Assembly: GCA_902791475.1 (NCBI GenBank)
Contig: CADAWC010000005.1
Span: forward strand, 1-64,000
Reading direction: 5' to 3'
Length of the DNA stretch: 64,000 nucleotides
Origin: Fibrobacter succinogenes
Lineage (GTDB): Bacteria > Fibrobacterota > Fibrobacteria > Fibrobacterales > Fibrobacteraceae
In this document: piece after piece, positions 2,358-63,735 of the stretch
How positions within the stretch are numbered: the stretch's first letter is position 1
Layout: each line of letters opens with the position of its first letter
Position numbers and translations under genes: made by a program
Notes under the pieces: generated by a model
Databases searched by the model: none
What the model was told of the DNA's origin: nothing
Seen by the model: the letters and a program-made list of their open reading frames with translations, nothing else

Positions 2358-2560
2358 AAGGTATTAGGGGTTAGGGGTTAGGCTTTAGGACTATAATTGT
2401 GTCAAGACAAAAGACGGGAGACGAGAGGCTAGAGATTTTTTAGGTTATTGGTCGCTAGTCAATAGTTATTAGAATATTTTTTGCAGCAACACCGCACTAT
2501 ACCAATGCACGAAGTGCATGATATTTCTCCTAACACCTAAAACCTATAACCTACTACCTA
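2358..2560. repeat. Modular inverted intergenic element (TTAGG type)
   Basis: The left arm at 2358-2391 is a run of GTATTAGG/GGTTAGG words; the right arm at 2527-2560 is the inverse (CCTAAAACC, CCTATAACC). A third module of TAGT words (TAGTCAATAGTTATTAG) lies at about 2456-2472, and a small hairpin ATGCAC-GAA-GTGCAT at 2505-2519. The right arm begins at the znuC stop codon. Similar elements lie near 5.0, 5.9, 41.8, 47.6, 50.1, 57.3 and 63.7 kb. Confidence 0.6.
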
Positions 2561-5012: not shown

Positions 5013-5105
5013 AATTAGTTACTAGTTACTAGTTATTAGTTACTAGTCTATACAGTCTTAGAGAGTGCATAACTAACAACCAATGACTATTGACCAACAA
5101 CTCAC
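5013..5105. repeat. Modular inverted intergenic element (TAGTTA type)
   Basis: The left arm at 5013-5047 repeats TTAGTTACTAG words. The right arm at about 5070-5105 has AACTAACAACCAATGAC words, roughly the inverse. This copy lies between divergent genes (HAD and rsmE) and so overlaps both promoter regions. Its wording matches the elements at 41.8 and 50.1 kb. Confidence 0.55.
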
Positions 5106-5130: not shown

Positions 5131-5871
5131 ATGAAAACTCCCGATAGCCGTTTCTATTGCCCGCTCATTAGCGTTGGCACCATTATCTTGGACGAAAATG
5201 AAAGCAGCCATGCCGTACGCGTTTGCCGCGCCGCAAATGGCGATACGCTACAGCTCTGCGACGGCCTCGGGCATTACGCCGATGCAACAATTACCAAGGC
5301 AGACGCCAAGACCTGCGAAGTCCGCGTAGATACAGTCGAAGACGCCCCACTCAAGCGCCCGCGCCTGAATCTCGGCATTGCCTGCCTCAAGGATGACGCA
5401 CTCGAAGAAGTCGTTTTCCATGCGGCACAAACTGAAACGGATTGCATCATCTTTCTGCGTACGGACTACTCGCAAGAGCCCAAGAACTCCGACTTGAAAA
5501 AGACCGTGCGCCGCGCCGAGCTCAAATCGCTCGTGAGTCTCAAGCAATCCAAGAAGCCCTGGATAACGCGCATCGAAGGCCCGATTGAATTTGACAAGTG
5601 GCTCAAAGATTATCAAGGTGACTTGATCCTCTGCGATATCGATGGAGAACGCCAGTTGGATTTGGAAGGAAACGCCGACGGGAACTGTTCCGCCGGAGAA
5701 CGCGCGGCCACTCCCGTTACTTTGCTTGTAGGCCCAGAAGGCGGATTTTCGCCACGCGAGATTGAAGCAATAAAGACCTTCCGCAATGGGAAGGTCCATC
5801 TGTTGAACTTAGGTAATACACGCTTGCGTGCGCGCACTGCCGCCATTATCGCGTTAGGGAAAGTGCTGTAG
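5131..5871 (+). CDS. rsmE: 16S rRNA m3U1498 methyltransferase RsmE
   Basis: From the ATG at 5131 the protein has 246 residues, normal for RsmE, a SPOUT-fold enzyme that methylates U1498 of 16S rRNA. The C-terminal SAM-binding knot shows the hallmarks LLVGPEGGFSPREIE and LNLGNTRLRARTAAI. An in-frame ATG at 5110 is possible, but 5131 puts SRFYCP at the N-terminus as in the family. No ribosome-binding site is visible; TATTTT ends 7 bases before the ATG. It is a lone plus-strand gene between minus-strand operons. Confidence 0.95.
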   Translation: MKTPDSRFYCPLISVGTIILDENESSHAVRVCRAANGDTLQLCDGLGHYADATITKADAKTCEVRVDTVEDAPLKRPRLNLGIACLKDDALEEVVFHAAQTETDCIIFLRTDYSQEPKNSDLKKTVRRAELKSLVSLKQSKKPWITRIEGPIEFDKWLKDYQGDLILCDIDGERQLDLEGNADGNCSAGERAATPVTLLVGPEGGFSPREIEAIKTFRNGKVHLLNLGNTRLRARTAAIIALGKVL

Positions 5872-5872
5872 C

Positions 5873-5959
5873 AGGTATTAGGTTTTAGGCATTAGGTAAA
5901 TTATCGCGGCTACGCCGCCCCATTACAAACGGGCTTAAGCCCGTGTTTTTTCCTAAAAC
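5873..5959. repeat. Modular inverted element with GCGGC core, between convergent rsmE and purT
   Basis: Left arm 5875-5896 (GTATTAGGTTTTAGGCATTAGG), right arm from 5952 (CCTAAAACCT). In the middle, 5900-5925 holds a GCGGC-NNN-GCCGC hairpin which, read on the minus strand, nearly matches the cores at 47574-47594 and 57306-57327 (GGCGGC..AGCCGCGATTAT pattern). Confidence 0.6.
5929..5951 (+). terminator. Rho-independent terminator of rsmE
   Basis: The palindrome ACGGGCTTAAGCCCGT (5929-5944) is followed by G and six T residues, a classic intrinsic terminator on the plus strand. It sits inside the intergenic element and just before the end of purT, so it would stop rsmE transcripts from running into purT. 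Confidence 0.8.
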
Positions 5960-7144
5960 CTACAAACTAATTTTCACTTTTTCGCGCATAGCCATGACAG
6001 TTGCCTTGGCTTCTTCGACTGTGTCGCGGCGAGCAAGGAGAACGCCCATACGGCGGTGGCCCTTGAGTTCCGGCTTTCCGAACAAGCGAAGGCCCGTATC
6101 CGGTTCTGCAAGAACTTCTTCGAGGCCGCTGAACTTCACATGGTCAGAATTGCCATCGACAACGATTGCCTTCGAGGCGCTCGGGCCGTGGAATGCAATG
6201 TTCGGAATCGGGAGACCGAGAATAGCGCGTGCGTGCAATGCAAATTCGGAGAGGTCCTGCGAAATGAGCGTCACCATGCCCGTGTCGTGCGGACGCGGAG
6301 AGACTTCGCTGAACAAGACCTCGTCCTTGCAAACGAAAAGTTCCACGCCAAAGATGCCACGACCGCCAAGAGCGTCCGTGACCTTCTTTGCAATCACCTT
6401 TGCCTGTTCCAAGAGTTCCGGCTTCATCGGCTGCGGCTGCCAAGATTCCTGATAGTCGCCGCCCACCTGATGATGGCCAATCGGTTCGAGGAAGCTCGTG
6501 CCACCCACATGGCGGACCGTGAGCAAAGTAATTTCGTAATCGAACGGCACAAAGCCTTCGACAATCACGCGGCTGGCAGCACCAGTGCGACCACCCGTCT
6601 GGGAAATGTTCCAGGAATTTTCAATGTCAGCTTCGGTCTTGATGACGCTCTGACCGTGACCGGAAGAACTCATCACCGGCTTCACCACGCACGGGATGCC
6701 GATTTCCTTGACCGCAGCCTTGAAATCTTCAAAGTTATCCGCAAAGCGGTACGGGCTCGTCTTGAGTCCGAGCTCTTCGGCAGCCAGGCGGCGAATACCT
6801 TCGCGGTTCATCGTGAGCTTCGTGGCCTTGGCAGTCGGGATGACGTTGTAGCCTTCCTTTTCGAGTTCCACGAGCGTGTCCGTTGCAATCGCTTCGACTT
6901 CCGGCACGATGTAGTCCGGTTTTTCCTTTTCAATGACGGCACGGAGTTCCTTGCCATCGAGCATGTTGATCACGTAGCTGCGATGAGCCACCTGCATGCC
7001 CGGAGCGTTGGCGTAACGGTCCACTGCAATCACTTCGACGCCAAGACGCATCATCTCGATGATGACTTCCTTGCCCAATTCACCAGAACCGCAAAAGAGA
7101 ACCTTTGTTGCGGTAGAACTAAGAGGTGTACCGATTTCTGCCAT
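5960..7144 (-). CDS. purT: Formate-dependent phosphoribosylglycinamide formyltransferase PurT
   Basis: The 394-residue ATP-grasp enzyme adds formyl to GAR in purine synthesis using free formate and ATP, in place of folate-dependent PurN. It has the N-terminal [12 protein letters not shown] nucleotide-binding loop, YVINMLDG, an ATP-grasp core ([14 protein letters not shown]) and the metal-binding [14 protein letters not shown] segment. The start has a good AAGGAG site 6 bases upstream. It appears to be a single-gene unit, with TATATT on the minus strand at about 7172-7167 as a possible -10 box. Confidence 0.96.
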
Positions 7145-7197: not shown

Positions 7198-7246
7198 AAA
7201 TGCCCTCCCGGAACGGGGTCCGGGATGACAAGTGGCGGGCATGACA
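7198..7246. repeat. Dispersed repeat ending GGGCATGACA
   Basis: It begins AAATGCCC and ends GGGCATGACA, like the copies at 125-207 and 8878-8906. The interior has its own perfect stem, TCCCGGA (7206-7212) with TCCGGGA (7219-7225). It lies between purT and the outer-membrane gene and could act as a terminator for the latter. Confidence 0.5.
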
Positions 7247-7303
7247 ATGAAATTTCGCGACTAATCTATTCGACGTTTTTGATGCAACGGACAGAAAAAC
7301 GTA

Positions 7304-41563: not shown

Positions 41564-41773
41564 ATGGCTTACGTACTTCTCATCCTTATCAGCATCGCAG
41601 GACTTGCGCTCTGCGGTTTTTATCTTAAAAAGAATATTGTCCGTATTAAGGAAAAAAATAAGGACGAGCCGAAAAAATACAAGCGTATCTGGAACTACGT
41701 GCCGACCGGACTATGGTACGGCTACTTGATCCTGTTCTTCGCAGGCCTCACCATCAACAACACAATTTTTTAG
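41564..41773 (+). CDS. Small two-span membrane protein, unknown function
   Basis: The 69-residue protein has a first membrane span (about 3-20), a basic cytoplasmic loop (KKNIVRIKEKNKDEPKKYKR) and a second span (about 48-65). The good promoter directly before it and the clean hydrophobic pattern argue for a real gene. I do not recognise a family. Confidence 0.7.
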   Translation: MAYVLLILISIAGLALCGFYLKKNIVRIKEKNKDEPKKYKRIWNYVPTGLWYGYLILFFAGLTINNTIF

Positions 41774-41870
41774 TTGTTGGTCAATAGTCGTTAGTCAGTA
41801 GTTGTTAGAAGACGCAGTTGTCCTAATTCTTCTCTAGTAACTAGTAACTTAGAACTAGTAACTAAAAAAA
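41774..41870. repeat. Modular inverted element between convergent genes (TAGTTA type)
   Basis: Left arm 41774-41810 has TTAGTTGTTGGTCAATAGTCG words; right arm about 41835-41867 has TAGTAACTAGTAACTTAG words. They pair imperfectly with G-U pairs. It fills the whole gap between the small membrane gene and the Nudix gene and may end transcription from both sides. Confidence 0.55.
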
Positions 41871-46581: not shown

Positions 46582-47526
46582 ATGCTTTTAGACGATTACA
46601 TCCAAAATTTTTTGATATACCTGCAAACCCAACGCAGGTACTCCGAAAAGACGGTCATTACATACCGAAAATCGCTCGAAAAATACCTTGCGATGCTAGC
46701 CGAGAACGCACAGCGCGGCCCCAAAAAACAGCAAGCAGCCGAAACCAGGACAGCTGTACCTCTAGAATCGTTCTCAGAAACAAACGTCAAGAATTTCGTG
46801 TGGGATTTAAAGATTAAACAGAAGCTCGCGCCCACAAGCATCTGCGAACACCTCGCCGCGCTCAAAAGCTTTGGCAAGTACCTCGTGCGTTCCAAGATTT
46901 TGCAGAAGAATCCCGCCGAATCAGTCCCCATGCCCAAGCGCCCCAAGCGCCTTGTGCAATTCCTCGGGCAAAAGGACCTCGCCGAAGAGAAATTCCCTGA
47001 ATTGCCCGCAAATCCGACACTTCCGCAAGTCCGCGCACGACTTTTGCTCGAACTCATTTACGGCTCGGGACTGCGAATTTCGGAATGTCAAAGCCTCTGC
47101 TGGAACCAATTACAGACAAAAGAAAAACTTGTCAGAGTCATCGGTAAAGGCAACAAGGAACGCATCGTTCCAATTACTGACGTGCTCATTTCATGGCTCG
47201 AAAAATTCAGGACTGCCGAGATTGAAGCCGGACACGCCCCAACAATTACAAGCTACGTTTTCCTAAGCGAAAACGGGAAGCCCTATGACATCCGCACATT
47301 GCGGAACGACATCCATGACTTGCTCCGAGAAATCGGCTGGGAAGGGAAAGCAAGCCCGCACGTGCTGCGCCACAGCTTTGCCACGCACCTGCTCGAAAAC
47401 GGCGCCGAAATCATGAGCGTCAAGGAAATGCTCGGGCACTCAAACATTTCCACCACACAAATCTACACGCACGTGAATGCCGAACGCCTAAAACAAGCCT
47501 TCAAAAAGACACACCCGCGCGCGTAG
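46582..47526 (+). CDS. Tyrosine recombinase XerC/XerD
   Basis: The 314-residue protein has an N-terminal SAM-like core-binding domain (YRKSLEKYLAML) and a C-terminal catalytic domain with all family residues: Arg in YGSGLRISE, Lys in GKGNKERIVPI, H-x-x-R in HVLRHSFATHLL, LGHSNISTTQIYTHV with nucleophile Y295. Length fits XerC/XerD, which resolve chromosome dimers at dif. Which of the two it is cannot be told. No dif-like site was found nearby. It is divergent from the PorV operon. Confidence 0.92.
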   Translation: MLLDDYIQNFLIYLQTQRRYSEKTVITYRKSLEKYLAMLAENAQRGPKKQQAAETRTAVPLESFSETNVKNFVWDLKIKQKLAPTSICEHLAALKSFGKYLVRSKILQKNPAESVPMPKRPKRLVQFLGQKDLAEEKFPELPANPTLPQVRARLLLELIYGSGLRISECQSLCWNQLQTKEKLVRVIGKGNKERIVPITDVLISWLEKFRTAEIEAGHAPTITSYVFLSENGKPYDIRTLRNDIHDLLREIGWEGKASPHVLRHSFATHLLENGAEIMSVKEMLGHSNISTTQIYTHVNAERLKQAFKKTHPRA

Positions 47527-47637
47527 CCCTGAGTAGTAGGAAGTTAGAAGTTGGAAGTAGACAGTATAAGTCAGGCGGCGCAGCCGCGATTATAAAACTT
47601 CCTACCGACTACTTCCTACTGTCTACTAACCACTTAA
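47527..47637. repeat. Modular inverted element with GCGGC core between convergent genes
   Basis: Left arm 47532-47567 (AGTAGGAAGTTAGAAGTTGG words), core GGCGGCGCAGCCGCGATTAT at 47574-47593, right arm 47598-47635 (ACTTCCTACCGACTACTTCC words). The core is shared with the elements at 5.9 and 57.3 kb although the arm words differ. Confidence 0.65.
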
Positions 47638-49984: not shown

Positions 49985-50144
49985 ACTCAGAAGTTTGAGC
50001 AGAGAGCTGAGAGATGGGTTTTGACTCATTAGTTCGGAGTTAGGAAGTCGGAATTAGGAATTACAAGTTACAAGTTCTAAGTTACTAGTTATTAGCTAAT
50101 AACTAATGACCATTTACCAATGACCAATGACCAGCGACTAACAA
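49985..50144. repeat. Modular inverted intergenic element
   Basis: It holds AGTTAGGAAGTCGG, AAGTTACAAGTTCTAAGTTACTAG words, a perfect 18-base palindrome AGTTATTAGCTAATAACT (50087-50104) and the inverse words AATGACCATTTACCAATGACC. It lies between two genes on the same strand, the DUF4416 gene ending at its right edge. Confidence 0.55.
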
Positions 50145-50681
50145 CTAACCACCCTTACGCGCTTTCTTGAACTTTTCGCGGATGAGCTGTAAATCGTGCT
50201 GGTAGGGATTTCGCACAAAGTCATCAAATGCCCAAGCGGTCGGGTGAAAAACGCCCTTCGCATACGTCAAGAGCATATCAAGCCAGACGCCCTTGCCCGC
50301 ATAAAGCTTGAAAGGTCCACGCTTGTAGCTCGGAAGCACCACCTTGTCCATATCCATATAGCCAATGTCAATGTTCACATGGCGCAGTTCCGGGGTTTCA
50401 GCCGAAGCCGTCGTGAGTTCCAACGCATTGCTACGTTCCTTTTCTTCGGCAATCGTCTCTGGCGGGATTTCCTTTTCAAAAGAAACCACCCCACGATACA
50501 GGTCATCCCCCATTTCAGGCTTGTAGTAATCCGTTTTATCAAACGCAAAAAGGCGCCCTTTATGGCGGATAGGGCCCCAAGTTTTTTCCAAAAGTTCAAT
50601 AACGTTCGGGTCCCATTCAGACCCTTTTTGCAACACAAACGCTATCAGCTGCGCGTTTTCAGAAAATTGAGATGCTTTCAT
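50145..50681 (-). CDS. DUF4416-family protein
   Basis: The 178-residue protein matches DUF4416: WDPNVIELLEKTWGPI, FDKTDYYKPEMGDDLYRGVVSFEKEI, VNIDIGYMDMDKVVLPSYKRGPF and the C-terminal FHPTAWAFDDFVR. The family is found in several phyla with no known function. It lies 2 bases after the metzincin lipoprotein gene, so the two form a pair. Confidence 0.85.
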   Translation of the reverse strand: MKASQFSENAQLIAFVLQKGSEWDPNVIELLEKTWGPIRHKGRLFAFDKTDYYKPEMGDDLYRGVVSFEKEIPPETIAEEKERSNALELTTASAETPELRHVNIDIGYMDMDKVVLPSYKRGPFKLYAGKGVWLDMLLTYAKGVFHPTAWAFDDFVRNPYQHDLQLIREKFKKARKGG

Positions 50682-56484: not shown

Positions 56485-56544
56485 AAATACCTCCATTTTA
56501 ACGCGTGTAAATTTAGCTTTTACCGAGCGATTTATCTAACTTTG

Positions 56545-57249
56545 ATGGACATGAAACACATTCTTTGCCTGCTATTTGCGATTTTAGTAACAAATGCTTT
56601 TGCAGTGGACCATTTCTGGGACATGCGCTACAACTTTGGCCCCGAAAGTCGCCCATCCCCAAAGATTGGCGTCGGTCTCGGCATCCGCTCGCCGTTCAAT
56701 TCCGACGTGCTTTTCCCCATCAACTTCACGACTAGACTCAACAAAGAATTCGACGTCGGTGCAAAACTCGACATCAACACTTATGGTCAGCTCGAAGAAA
56801 TCAACACCGCCTTGGACATTGGCGTCCGTTACCGCTACAGACCAAGCTCATTCATCGCATTTGACGGCTATCTCGACCTGAGCGAAACTAGCCAGAGCGC
56901 CCTAGCATTCACCATCGGTACGCAACAGTTTATCGCGAAGTGCTTCGCAAACTACTACGAACTCCGCGCAGGTTTCCTTGACGGTGCAACCGGCAAAGAC
57001 GGCTACGTAAAGTTCTCGGCATCCATGATTCCGACAATTGTTTTCGGACAAGTTCTCCGCATGTTCCTTGAAGTCACGTCATCGGCTAGCGTTGGTAACC
57101 TCAAAGACGATTTCATGGTAGACATTATCCCGAAGATTGAACTTACCTTTGGCGGTACGCACGTCCGTATTGACTTCGACGTGGGCGTTATGCAAGAAAA
57201 GAACAATGATCGCAAGACCATTGCTCTTTACGTTATGACAGCGTTGTAG
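56545..57249 (+). CDS. Predicted outer-membrane beta-barrel protein
   Basis: The 234-residue protein (from ATG 56545; ATG 56551 also possible) has a signal peptide (HILCLLFAILVTNAFA) and a body of alternating strands such as NFTTRLNKEFDVGAKLDI and VRYRYRPSSFIAFDGYLDL. It resembles small eight- to ten-strand barrels; no family is recognised. TATCTA lies 6 bases before the first ATG, so the mRNA may be leaderless. It is convergent with clpB. Confidence 0.75.
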   Translation: MDMKHILCLLFAILVTNAFAVDHFWDMRYNFGPESRPSPKIGVGLGIRSPFNSDVLFPINFTTRLNKEFDVGAKLDINTYGQLEEINTALDIGVRYRYRPSSFIAFDGYLDLSETSQSALAFTIGTQQFIAKCFANYYELRAGFLDGATGKDGYVKFSASMIPTIVFGQVLRMFLEVTSSASVGNLKDDFMVDIIPKIELTFGGTHVRIDFDVGVMQEKNNDRKTIALYVMTAL

Positions 57250-57359
57250 GAATTAGGTTTTAGGCTGTAGGGGTTAGGTATTACACGTGCTATGCACATT
57301 TCTAATGGGCGGCATAGCCGCGATTATTTTCCTAAAACCTATTACCTATCACCTATAAC
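57250..57359. repeat. Modular inverted element with GCGGC core between convergent genes
   Basis: Left arm 57252-57282 (ATTAGGTTTTAGGCTGTAGG words), core GGGCGGCATAGCCGCGATTAT at about 57307-57327, right arm 57331-57363 (CCTAAAACCTATTACC words) running to the clpB stop. This is the clearest copy of the type. Confidence 0.7.
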
Positions 57360-59927
57360 CTAAGCAACCACAAACATTCCATCCTTGTAGTCCACCACGG
57401 CGGGCTTTGCTGCACTCACGGTTCCCGAGAGTATCGCATGGCTCAACGGACGTTCAATGTTGCGTTCGATGTAACGCTGAATCGGGCGAGCACCGAATTC
57501 CGGCTGGTAAGCACCTTCCGCAATTGCATCAAGTGCCGCATCCGAAAGTGTAAGCACCAAGTCCTGACGGGCAGCGCGGTTCGCCAAATCCGCAAATTTG
57601 AGTTTCACGATTTCGCGAATCTGCTTCTTCGAGAGGCTCTGGAACACAAGCACTTCGTCCAAGCGGTTCAAGAATTCCGGGCGGAAGAACGCATGCAAGT
57701 CAGCTTCGACATCCGCAAGCGCAACCTGCGGCGGTTCACCGTTCTTGGCACTAGCCGCACTCAAGCGGAACTTCTCGGCACCCAAGTTCGAGGTCATCAA
57801 AATCAAGGTGTTCTTGAAGTTCACCGTACGACCCTTGCCATCCGTCAAACGACCGTCATCGAGCACCTGCAACAACGTATTGAACACGTCCGGGTGCGCC
57901 TTCTCGATTTCATCGAGCAAAATCACGCAGTACGGATGCGTACGCACAGCTTCGGTCAGCTGGCCACCTTCTTCGTAGCCCACATATCCCGGAGGAGCAC
58001 CGATCAAACGGCTAACGCTATGCTTTTCCATGTATTCGCTCATGTCGATACGGACAAGTGCATTTTCGCTATCGAAAAGTTCAACCGCCAAAGCCTTTGC
58101 AAGTTCCGTCTTACCCACGCCCGTCGGGCCCAAGAAGAGGAAACTTCCAATCGGCGCATTCTCGCGGCTTAAACCGCTACGGTTACGCAAAATGGCTTCG
58201 GACACAGCTTCGACAGCTTCGTCCTGGCCAATCACGCGGGCATGCAAACGTTCGTCCAAGTGCAACAACTTCGCCTTTTCACCTTCGCAAAGCTTTGTCA
58301 CCGGAATGCCCGTCCAACGGCTCACCACAAGGGCAATCGTATCTTCGGTCACTTCTTCGCTCAAGCCGCCTTCTTCGGCACTCTTGCGGAGCGCTTCGGT
58401 CTTTTGAGCCAATTCCTTCTCAATGTTCACAATCTTGTTGTACTTGAGTTCAGCAGCGCGGTTCAAGTCGTAACGGGCTTCGGCCTGTTCCATCTCGTCC
58501 TTTGCCGCCTTCAAGGATTTCTTCAAGTCCTGAACTTCGGCAAATGCGGCACGGCGATCCTGCCAGCGTTCCTGCATCTGCTTAACGGCAGCATCAGTCA
58601 CAGCCAAGTCATCACGGAGTTCTTTCAAGCGCTTGACGCTCGCTTCATCCGTTTCCTTCGAAAGCGCCTGCTCCTCGATTTTCATCTGGAGTTCCTTACG
58701 CTGTAAGGTATCGAGCGCTTCCGGGACGGTATCCATCTGCGTTTTCACAAGGCTTGCCGCCTCGTCGATCAAGTCAATGGCCTTATCCGGTAAGAAACGG
58801 TCACTGATGTAACGGCTCGAAAGTTTCACTGCAGCTACGAGCGCGTTGTCGTGCAGACGCACGCCGTGGTGCGCATCAAAGCCATCCTTAATGCCACGCA
58901 AAATCGAAATCGCTTCGTCTTCGCTCGGCTCGTTCACCTGCACCGGCTGGAATCGACGTTCCAAAGCAGAATCCTTTTCAATGTACTTGCGGTATTCCTG
59001 AGTCGTCGTTGCACCAATGCAATGGAGTTCGCCACGAGCAAGTTTCGGCTTAAGCATATTGCCCAAGTCCATCGAGCCTTCAGTCTTACCCGCCCCCACA
59101 ATGTTATGGAGTTCATCGATGAACATAAGCGTGTTGCCATCTTCTTCAATAGCGTCAATCACTGATTTGAGACGTTCTTCAAAGTCGCCACGGTACTTGG
59201 CGCCCGCCATCAAGGCAGACAAATCAAGTGCAAAGACCTTCTTGCCCTTCAACGCATCCGGCACGTCGCCACGGTAAATACGTTCGGCAAGGCCTTCGAC
59301 AATAGCCGTCTTACCCACGCCCGGTTCACCGACCAAGCAAGGGTTGTTCTTTGTCTTACGGCTCAAAATCAAAATCACACGGCGGATTTCTTCTTCACGG
59401 CCAATCACCGGCGAGAGCTTTCCATCAGCCGCCATTTCCACGAGTTCACGACCGTAGAGTTTCAGCGGAGACTGTTCCTCGGCGTTCGCGGCTCCCGCAA
59501 ACGGGTCCGAAAGCCAAGTTTCCACCACTTCGGTCGAGCCAAGAGCATCTTCAAAGACCTTGGCAAGTCCACGGTCGCCCGAGAACTTCATCAACGCCAC
59601 GAGCAAATCGCCCGGAGTCACCATACGGCTGACCTGACGGGCCGCCTGCACAGCGGCACGCAAAATGCGGTTCAAGTCGCTATCCGGTTCCACATCCGGG
59701 TTCACGCCTTCCATGCGCGGGATTTTCTGGACAAACGGTTCCAAACGGCCTCGGAGTTCCGAGGTCTTCACCCCTTTAGATTTATAGAGTTTCTTCAGGG
59801 TTGCATCAGGGCCTTCAACAAGACCGACAGCCAAATGAGCCGCACCCAAATAAGAGTGCGAACAGCGGTCGCGCAAGCTTTGCGCCTTGGCCAAGACCTT
59901 TTCTGCATCGTTAGTAAAATCTGACAT
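57360..59927 (-). CDS. clpB: Protein disaggregase ClpB
   Basis: ClpB is a AAA+ hexamer that rescues aggregated proteins with DnaK. The 855-residue protein has the Clp-N domain, a first ATPase (GEPGVGKT, about 200), the coiled-coil M domain (about 400-520) that marks ClpB rather than ClpA/ClpC, and a second ATPase (GPTGVGKT, about 600) with the [15 protein letters not shown] pore loop. AGAGGAT precedes the ATG. No CIRCE heat-shock operator was seen upstream. Confidence 0.96.
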
Positions 59928-63570: not shown

Positions 63571-63607
63571 AAAAAAATTCTCCTATTTACCGATAGCAAT
63601 ATAGCAA

Positions 63608-63735
63608 TTATTAGTATTTAGTGATTTGTGGTTAGTGATTAGTAGGCAGAACTTAGCCCGCTTCGCTCTTAGAACTTAGTTATTTTCTTTTAGAGCAAAA
63701 GGAGTGTTCTAAGTTCTAAGTTCTAAGTTCTAACA
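63608..63735. repeat. Modular intergenic element (TTAGT and GTTCTAA words)
   Basis: Left part AGTATTTAGTGATTTGTGG and GTTAGTGATTAG, middle CGCTTCGCTCTTAGAACTTAG, right part four tandem GTTCTAA words (63703-63733). The CTTAGAACTTAG and GTTCTAAG words are inverse. It ends at the stop of the rRNA methyltransferase gene. Confidence 0.55.

Follow-up and report, generated by a model that had tools for sequence, protein, structure and literature searches.

What are the arrays of short words that stand, mirrored about small hairpins, between genes of Fibrobacter succinogenes, and are they signals of gene ends or something else? We took up this question at the space between clpB and the gene that converges on it, within a window of 64,000 nucleotides (positions 1 to 64,000 of contig CADAWC010000005.1). 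Statistics on the genome itself cover 857 kb, about one fifth of an assembly that totals 3.86 Mb over 97 contigs, with genes predicted by a simple codon-usage caller and word classes assigned by short regular expressions.

The clpB element and the other arrays of the window

The element at clpB consists of two arms of seven-letter words on either side of a core with two hairpins, and its parts are the following:

57247..57362, convergent space between the upstream gene (56542-57249) and clpB: heptad element
57247..57279, plus strand: left (F) arm, class TAGGNNT, five heptads
57285..57299, plus strand: core hairpin A, stem ACGTGC/GCACAT
57309..57321, plus strand: core hairpin B, GCGGCATAGCCGC, then GATTATTTT
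57331..57362, plus strand: right (R) arm, CCTANNA heptads
57360-59927, minus strand: clpB, with ClpB/AAA domains

The left arm reads TAGGAAT TAGGTTT TAGGCTG TAGGGGT TAGG and the right arm CCTAAAA CCTATTA CCTATCA CCTATAA CCTA. The first TAG of the left arm is the stop of the upstream gene, and positions 57360-57362, within the right arm, are the clpB stop codon on the minus strand. The upstream gene has no Pfam match, and homologues of it are present in Fibrobacter and related Fibrobacterota records; at loci L030, L031 and L033, mini-hairpins such as GCGGCTTCGCCGC lie right after the stop of the homologue, without heptad arms. The predicted fold of the element is a ladder of 4-5 bp stemlets that recur at 7-nt intervals and are separated by 2-3 unpaired letters, at -41.5 kcal/mol (z -4.3), which 0 of 200 shuffles equal. 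Core hairpin B is also present in elements with other arm classes.

The first-pass annotation had reported word arrays in eight intergenic spaces of the window, and the sequence at all eight bears them. Its count of five at converging or tandem gene ends has to be revised, as four lie in convergent spaces (5.9, 41.8, 47.6 and 57.3 kb), three in tandem spaces (2.4, 50.1 and 63.7 kb) and one in a divergent space (5.0 kb). The other seven places are:

2359..2560, tandem space: composite element at 2.4 kb, with TAGG arms at 2359-2389 and 2529-2560
5016..5100, divergent space: element at 5.0 kb, with a TAGTTAC-class F array at 5016-5047 and a degenerate R side
5868..5960, convergent space: element at 5.9 kb, TAGG class, with a mirrored core and hairpins GCGGCTACGCCGC and CGGGCTTAAGCCCG
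41767..41864, convergent space: element at 41.8 kb, TAGT class
47535..47634, convergent space: element at 47.6 kb, GTAGGAA class, with core hairpin B
49997..50152, tandem space: array at 50.1 kb, one unbroken 156-nt heptad-phased array
63605..63735, tandem space: element at 63.7 kb, TTAGTGA and TTAGAAC/GTTCTAA words, read by eye at the window end

The TAGG arms at 2.4 kb enclose a GACGA/TAGT-class array (2404-2472), and the 50.1 kb array runs through several words in succession, turning from F to R with no core. Predicted folds have z scores of -3.8 at 47.6 kb, -3.0 at 5.9 kb, -2.2 at 41.8 kb and a weak -1.9 at 5.0 kb.

Other features share these spaces or lie near them. A tyrosine recombinase gene (Phage_integrase and SAM-like domains, XerC/D-like; 46582-47526, plus strand) is directly upstream of the 47.6 kb element. 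A second repeat type, consisting of palindromes TGTCATTCCCG...CGGGAATCTCC and relatives (GGCGGGCATGACA), occurs at 7200-7250 of the window and at L106, L118, L122 and other loci, scattered in intergenic spaces and often adjoining heptad elements. A GC-rich dispersed repeat, GCGCCTGTCCTCGCGCCTGTCCTCGC...GACGGGGATGACGGGGATGAC, is found at L118 (695, 14589 and 17066) and L120 (9174), and is probably recent, since its copies are near-identical at several sites. The sole Rfam match in the window is the ftsZ-DE RNA (RF02985; 9133-9201, minus strand; 97.7 bits, far over the gathering score), away from the heptad elements.

A seven-nucleotide unit in class-matched arms

The arms had been described at first as mixed words of five to eight letters; in every class, however, the unit is 7 nt. 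Four-letter matches at lag 7 exceed those of a dinucleotide shuffle 4.5-fold in convergent, 3.9-fold in tandem and 2.4-fold in divergent spaces of the 857 kb, with further intergenic peaks at lags 14, 21 and 28, and neighbouring lags stay near the shuffled level (0.9-1.2x at lag 6 and 1.0-1.35x at lag 8). Coding sequence of the same 857 kb has no lag-7 excess. A scan for arrays of the kind that the first-pass annotation had proposed returned 135 in the 857 kb (402 spaces) as against 6 in dinucleotide shuffles. The word counts per class are 183 for TAGTYAN, 177 for TAGGNNT, 38 for GACGAGA, 25 for GTAGRMA and 8 for TTAGAAC; TTAGTGG is an additional class in the same genome, and other species have extra classes that include GGTATGA, GTGTGTA, GAATTAT and CTAGAGG. 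TAG is constant in the words and some positions are free. The elements form one modular repeat family, larger than first described.

The arrays are ordered with respect to each other. Successive arrays less than 130 nt apart stand as F-R in 26 cases, R-F in none, F-F in seven and R-R in one, and the TAG-bearing arm comes first in all 26 F/R pairs. Both arms belong to the same class in 19 of these 26 pairs, where 10 are expected (1/20,000 permutations). The core hairpin GGCGGCnnnGCCGCGATTAT is found with TAGT, TAGG or GTAGGAA arms, and the arms around this common core are class-matched in 14 of 17 cases against 6.8 expected (6/20,000 permutations). In core hairpin A, four of six pairs have compensatory changes among 12 TAGG-class elements, with a covariation score that went unreached in the shuffles (0/500), which suggests that some structure is maintained.

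The proposal that arms pair within each element, and better than shuffled sequence, is upheld by mean pairing energies of -19.1 kcal/mol within elements and -9.4 kcal/mol for shuffled sequence. Pairing with the arms of other elements averages -14.5 kcal/mol, but when the comparison is held to a single class, true partners reach -20.3 kcal/mol and the arms of other elements -21.9 kcal/mol. No element-specific arm covariation was seen beyond class. As true partners within a class pair no better than foreign arms, arm pairing is a property inherited with the class word.

Gene ends, turnover and candidate explanations

Arrays occupy 32% of convergent, 22% of tandem and 19% of divergent spaces in the 857 kb (P=0.08 for convergent versus divergent). 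In tandem spaces, 62% of elements start within 15 nt of a stop codon, and in 32% no more than 15 nt separate the end of the element from the next start. Arrays beside a stop are F-oriented relative to the ending gene in 54 of the 64 scored, and those before a start are R-oriented in 45 of 54. Of 70 cases, 32 have the stop codon within the array, and TAG makes up 66% of stops near arrays versus 27% elsewhere (P=6e-10). Stops that so often lie inside arrays and are shifted to TAG indicate that the arrays often supply gene ends, and for many genes the elements determine the final residues along with the stop codon. Since they set gene ends and also occupy the spaces that are mined for terminators and small RNAs, they are relevant to annotation. 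The idea that the arrays serve in general as stops in all six frames was rejected, since GACGAGA words contain no stop at all and GTAGGAA words offer them on a single strand.

The window and further stretches were set against five relatives; several of these are MAGs, and isolate-like assemblies (G046, 10 contigs) agree with them. The comparison of the same spaces between genomes, which had also been proposed at the outset, found that presence, copy number and class all vary, the spaces of related species being empty, holding copy variants in heptad steps, or holding a different class. At least five window elements are missing in one or more relatives with their neighbours intact. The 2.4 kb (2359..2560), 5.0 kb and 5.9 kb elements are missing from G013, the 47.6 kb element from G044, G046, G013 and G050, and the 41.8 kb element, which has an identical allele in G013 and kindred versions with different heptad numbers in G046, G050 and G003, is lost in G044. 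Two window elements differ by whole heptads in relatives, and the 50.1 kb array is shorter by 14 and 7 nt in G013. Growth by word duplication, as first suggested, and loss in the same steps are supported by the indels (4-60 nt), which are multiples of 7 in 8 of 11 cases inside arrays versus 3 of 22 outside (P=0.001).

Class changes as well. Seventeen spaces have more than one class set among genomes. For instance, the site at 2.9 kb of contig C3 in our genome carries a different class in each of three genomes and nothing in two others, and G003 has there gained a whole element in a space that is otherwise intact. In the same relative (L090-L093) the 47.6 kb element (47527-47637) is half-switched, its left arm changed to a GGTATGG-type and its core and right arm kept. 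The clpB space holds, across genomes, TAGG, TTCTAAG, GTATGGG, GTAGGAA, GACGAGA, TTAGTGG, CTAGGAT or GTGTGTA words, or is empty. The TAGG class yields 86 matches in our genome and none in G044 and G046, near relatives in which the flanking protein is 98-99% identical to ours; G005 and G154, which are more distant, have 67 and 78.

Same-site alleles can nevertheless be close across species. An allele at least 85% identical is present at the orthologous site of one of the five relatives for 12 of 38 elements, and at 89 kb of C3, G154 has our alleles in both of two spaces, as do G005 in the first and G099 in the second. The clpB element and its counterpart in the orthologous space of MAG RUG12208 (L045) are about 98% alike. 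This match lies in a recombination tract (about 57165-57960 of the window) where identity rises from about 78% to about 97%; the tract takes in the final ~80 bp of the upstream gene together with the element and the end of clpB, and beyond it the upstream gene has only about 78% identity. The best other copy of the element in our own genome is 77% identical, and TAGG-class copies elsewhere in the genome are about 75-85% alike. Near-identical alleles at the same site across species, with own-genome copies so much less alike, favour interspecies exchange over recent copy-and-paste within the genome.

We consider the elements to be, more likely than not, dispersed, fast-turnover non-coding repeats with degenerate heptad arms around a hairpin core, changing copy number in steps of 7 nt and exchanged between species. 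This reading starts from the 7-nt unit, the classes, the F-before-R polarity, the class match of arms, the heptad copy changes and the supply of stops, together with presence, absence and replacement at orthologous sites and the near-identical same-site alleles across species, one of them inside a recombination tract. Coming and going between species while supplying stops, the elements behave as a fast-evolving repeat family, not a fixed gene-end signal. Heptad copy number would shift through replication slippage of 7-nt units, and alleles would reach other Fibrobacter species chiefly by way of homologous recombination that runs through flanking genes. The elements would be tolerated, not required, and their intergenic position would follow from the TAG-bearing word, which would supply a stop without harm wherever an array meets a gene end. 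Joint switching of class might come about if elements recombined within their cores and selection favoured matched arms, or if one arm served as template for the other in a hairpin. Several points count against this reading: a whole-element gain such as that in G003 is not explained by slippage, interspecies recombination accounts for spread, not first insertion, the covariation of core hairpin A speaks for some maintained structure, the gene calls are those of a simple caller, and part of the genomes are MAGs. An enzymatic process (for example templated repeat synthesis or hairpin-templated arm conversion) that writes or rewrites both arms while keeping the core would have the class switch jointly, and we hold this to be quite improbable.

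The first-pass annotation had suggested that the elements may be terminators or nucleoid-protein sites. With divergent spaces nearly as rich in arrays (19% versus 32% and 22%), the data do not support a role of either kind tied to gene ends as the principal explanation. In the form of bidirectional terminators or mRNA 3'-end protectors, where a purine-rich arm, core hairpin and C/U-rich arm would end or stabilise either transcript, the idea draws on the close fit of elements to stop codons, the strong fold at clpB (z -4.3), the covariation of core hairpin A and the weakly terminator-like score of core hairpin B followed by GATTATTTT. Canonical terminators are also rarer with arrays (7/22 versus 24/46 in convergent and 5/57 versus 34/207 in tandem spaces, neither significant), a weak deficit that may reflect a secondary terminator effect. 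We nevertheless judge the idea unlikely, as divergent spaces are nearly as often occupied, class and presence vary among close relatives, the arms lack within-element covariation beyond class, and orthologous convergent spaces in close relatives can be only about 12 nt long with no element. At about 93.6 kb of C3, moreover, a canonical hairpin with T-tract is present in five of five genomes and a heptad element in one of five. Non-autonomous MITE-like transposable elements, moved by a transposase in trans with one family per word class, would fit the presence or absence of entire units at fixed sites, the dispersal of TAGG and TAGT classes with homologous cores and the very patchy copy number. 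Yet no near-identical pair occurs at different sites in the 857 kb despite site polymorphism among close species, the empty/filled pairs inspected by eye showed no obvious target duplication, and a search for Y1_Tnp, the REP transposase family, found none in G005 and G154, two largely complete genomes rich in TAGG, all of which makes this a rather unlikely origin. A Y1_Tnp gene is present in 27 of 80 genomes, and its distribution does not track element copy number, for which reason RAYT/REP mobilisation was rejected; a phage origin was set aside on finding no match in the phage collection. Very improbable, in our estimate, is the reading in which a protein that binds DNA or RNA, either a nucleoid protein or an RNA chaperone, would occupy the arrays and set the heptad by its footprint. 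The strict 7-nt phase even across word changes in the 50.1 kb array, the invariant TAG with other positions free and the F-before-R polarity would suit it, but 7 bp is not a helical repeat, and one protein could hardly read all the words because the classes differ so much.

Comparison with known heptanucleotide repeats

Short tandemly repeated repetitive (STRR) heptanucleotides are a feature of filamentous cyanobacteria. In the freely accessible literature that we searched, we found no earlier description of such elements in Fibrobacter, which is no proof of absence. TAACTGA heptamers occur in Beggiatoaceae, cyanobacteria and Bacteroidetes, and the Beggiatoaceae repeats are direct, of a single word and mostly just upstream of start codons (PMC4679880). 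Polymerase slippage has been proposed for heptanucleotide repeats (Mrazek et al. 2007, as cited in PMC4679880). The Fibrobacter elements are like both in their 7-nt unit, intergenic position and patchy distribution among species, and have the intergenic tandem unit at many loci with whole-unit copy variation. Unlike them, the Fibrobacter arrays are often inverted arms around a hairpin core, come in several classes per genome, and lie at gene ends as well as before starts. A Nostoc plasmid carries an array of TTGGTCA/TTAGTCA words, which are those of the Fibrobacter TAGT class (the only class compared), and the stretch has a 2.4-fold lag-7 signal; a Serratia plasmid control has none.

REP/BIME and Correia (CREE) repeats resemble the elements in being short, dispersed intergenic inverted repeats that are frequent at gene ends. 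REPs have a fixed palindrome and a relation to Y1 transposases, and CREEs have fixed terminal repeats (compare PMC2817692, PMC2649163). In contrast, the Fibrobacter arms are word arrays of several classes, with Y1_Tnp not following copy number.

Within the literature searched, the system nearest in kind is the P6b stem of the Nostoc trnL (UAA) group I intron, the arms of which are built from Class I TDNGATT or Class II NNTGAGT heptanucleotides, with the class repeatedly replaced as a whole between lineages (PMC4476775). Both systems have inverted arms of degenerate heptanucleotides, one class per element, length steps of 7 nt and whole-class replacement, and in Fibrobacter, too, pairing inverted arms of one class are replaced as a whole. 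P6b is unlike the Fibrobacter elements in being one site in a self-splicing intron, as opposed to hundreds of intergenic sites with more classes; the group I intron and tRNA-Leu setting is absent here, with neither an Rfam intron match nor a tRNA in the window. For the question why heptanucleotide repeats predominate in scattered bacteria, the hundreds of sites, several classes and 80 genomes of Fibrobacter, with their clean empty, filled and switched alleles, make slippage, exchange and class switching measurable. The elements are best read as akin to the STRR heptanucleotides of cyanobacteria and to the arms of Nostoc P6b.
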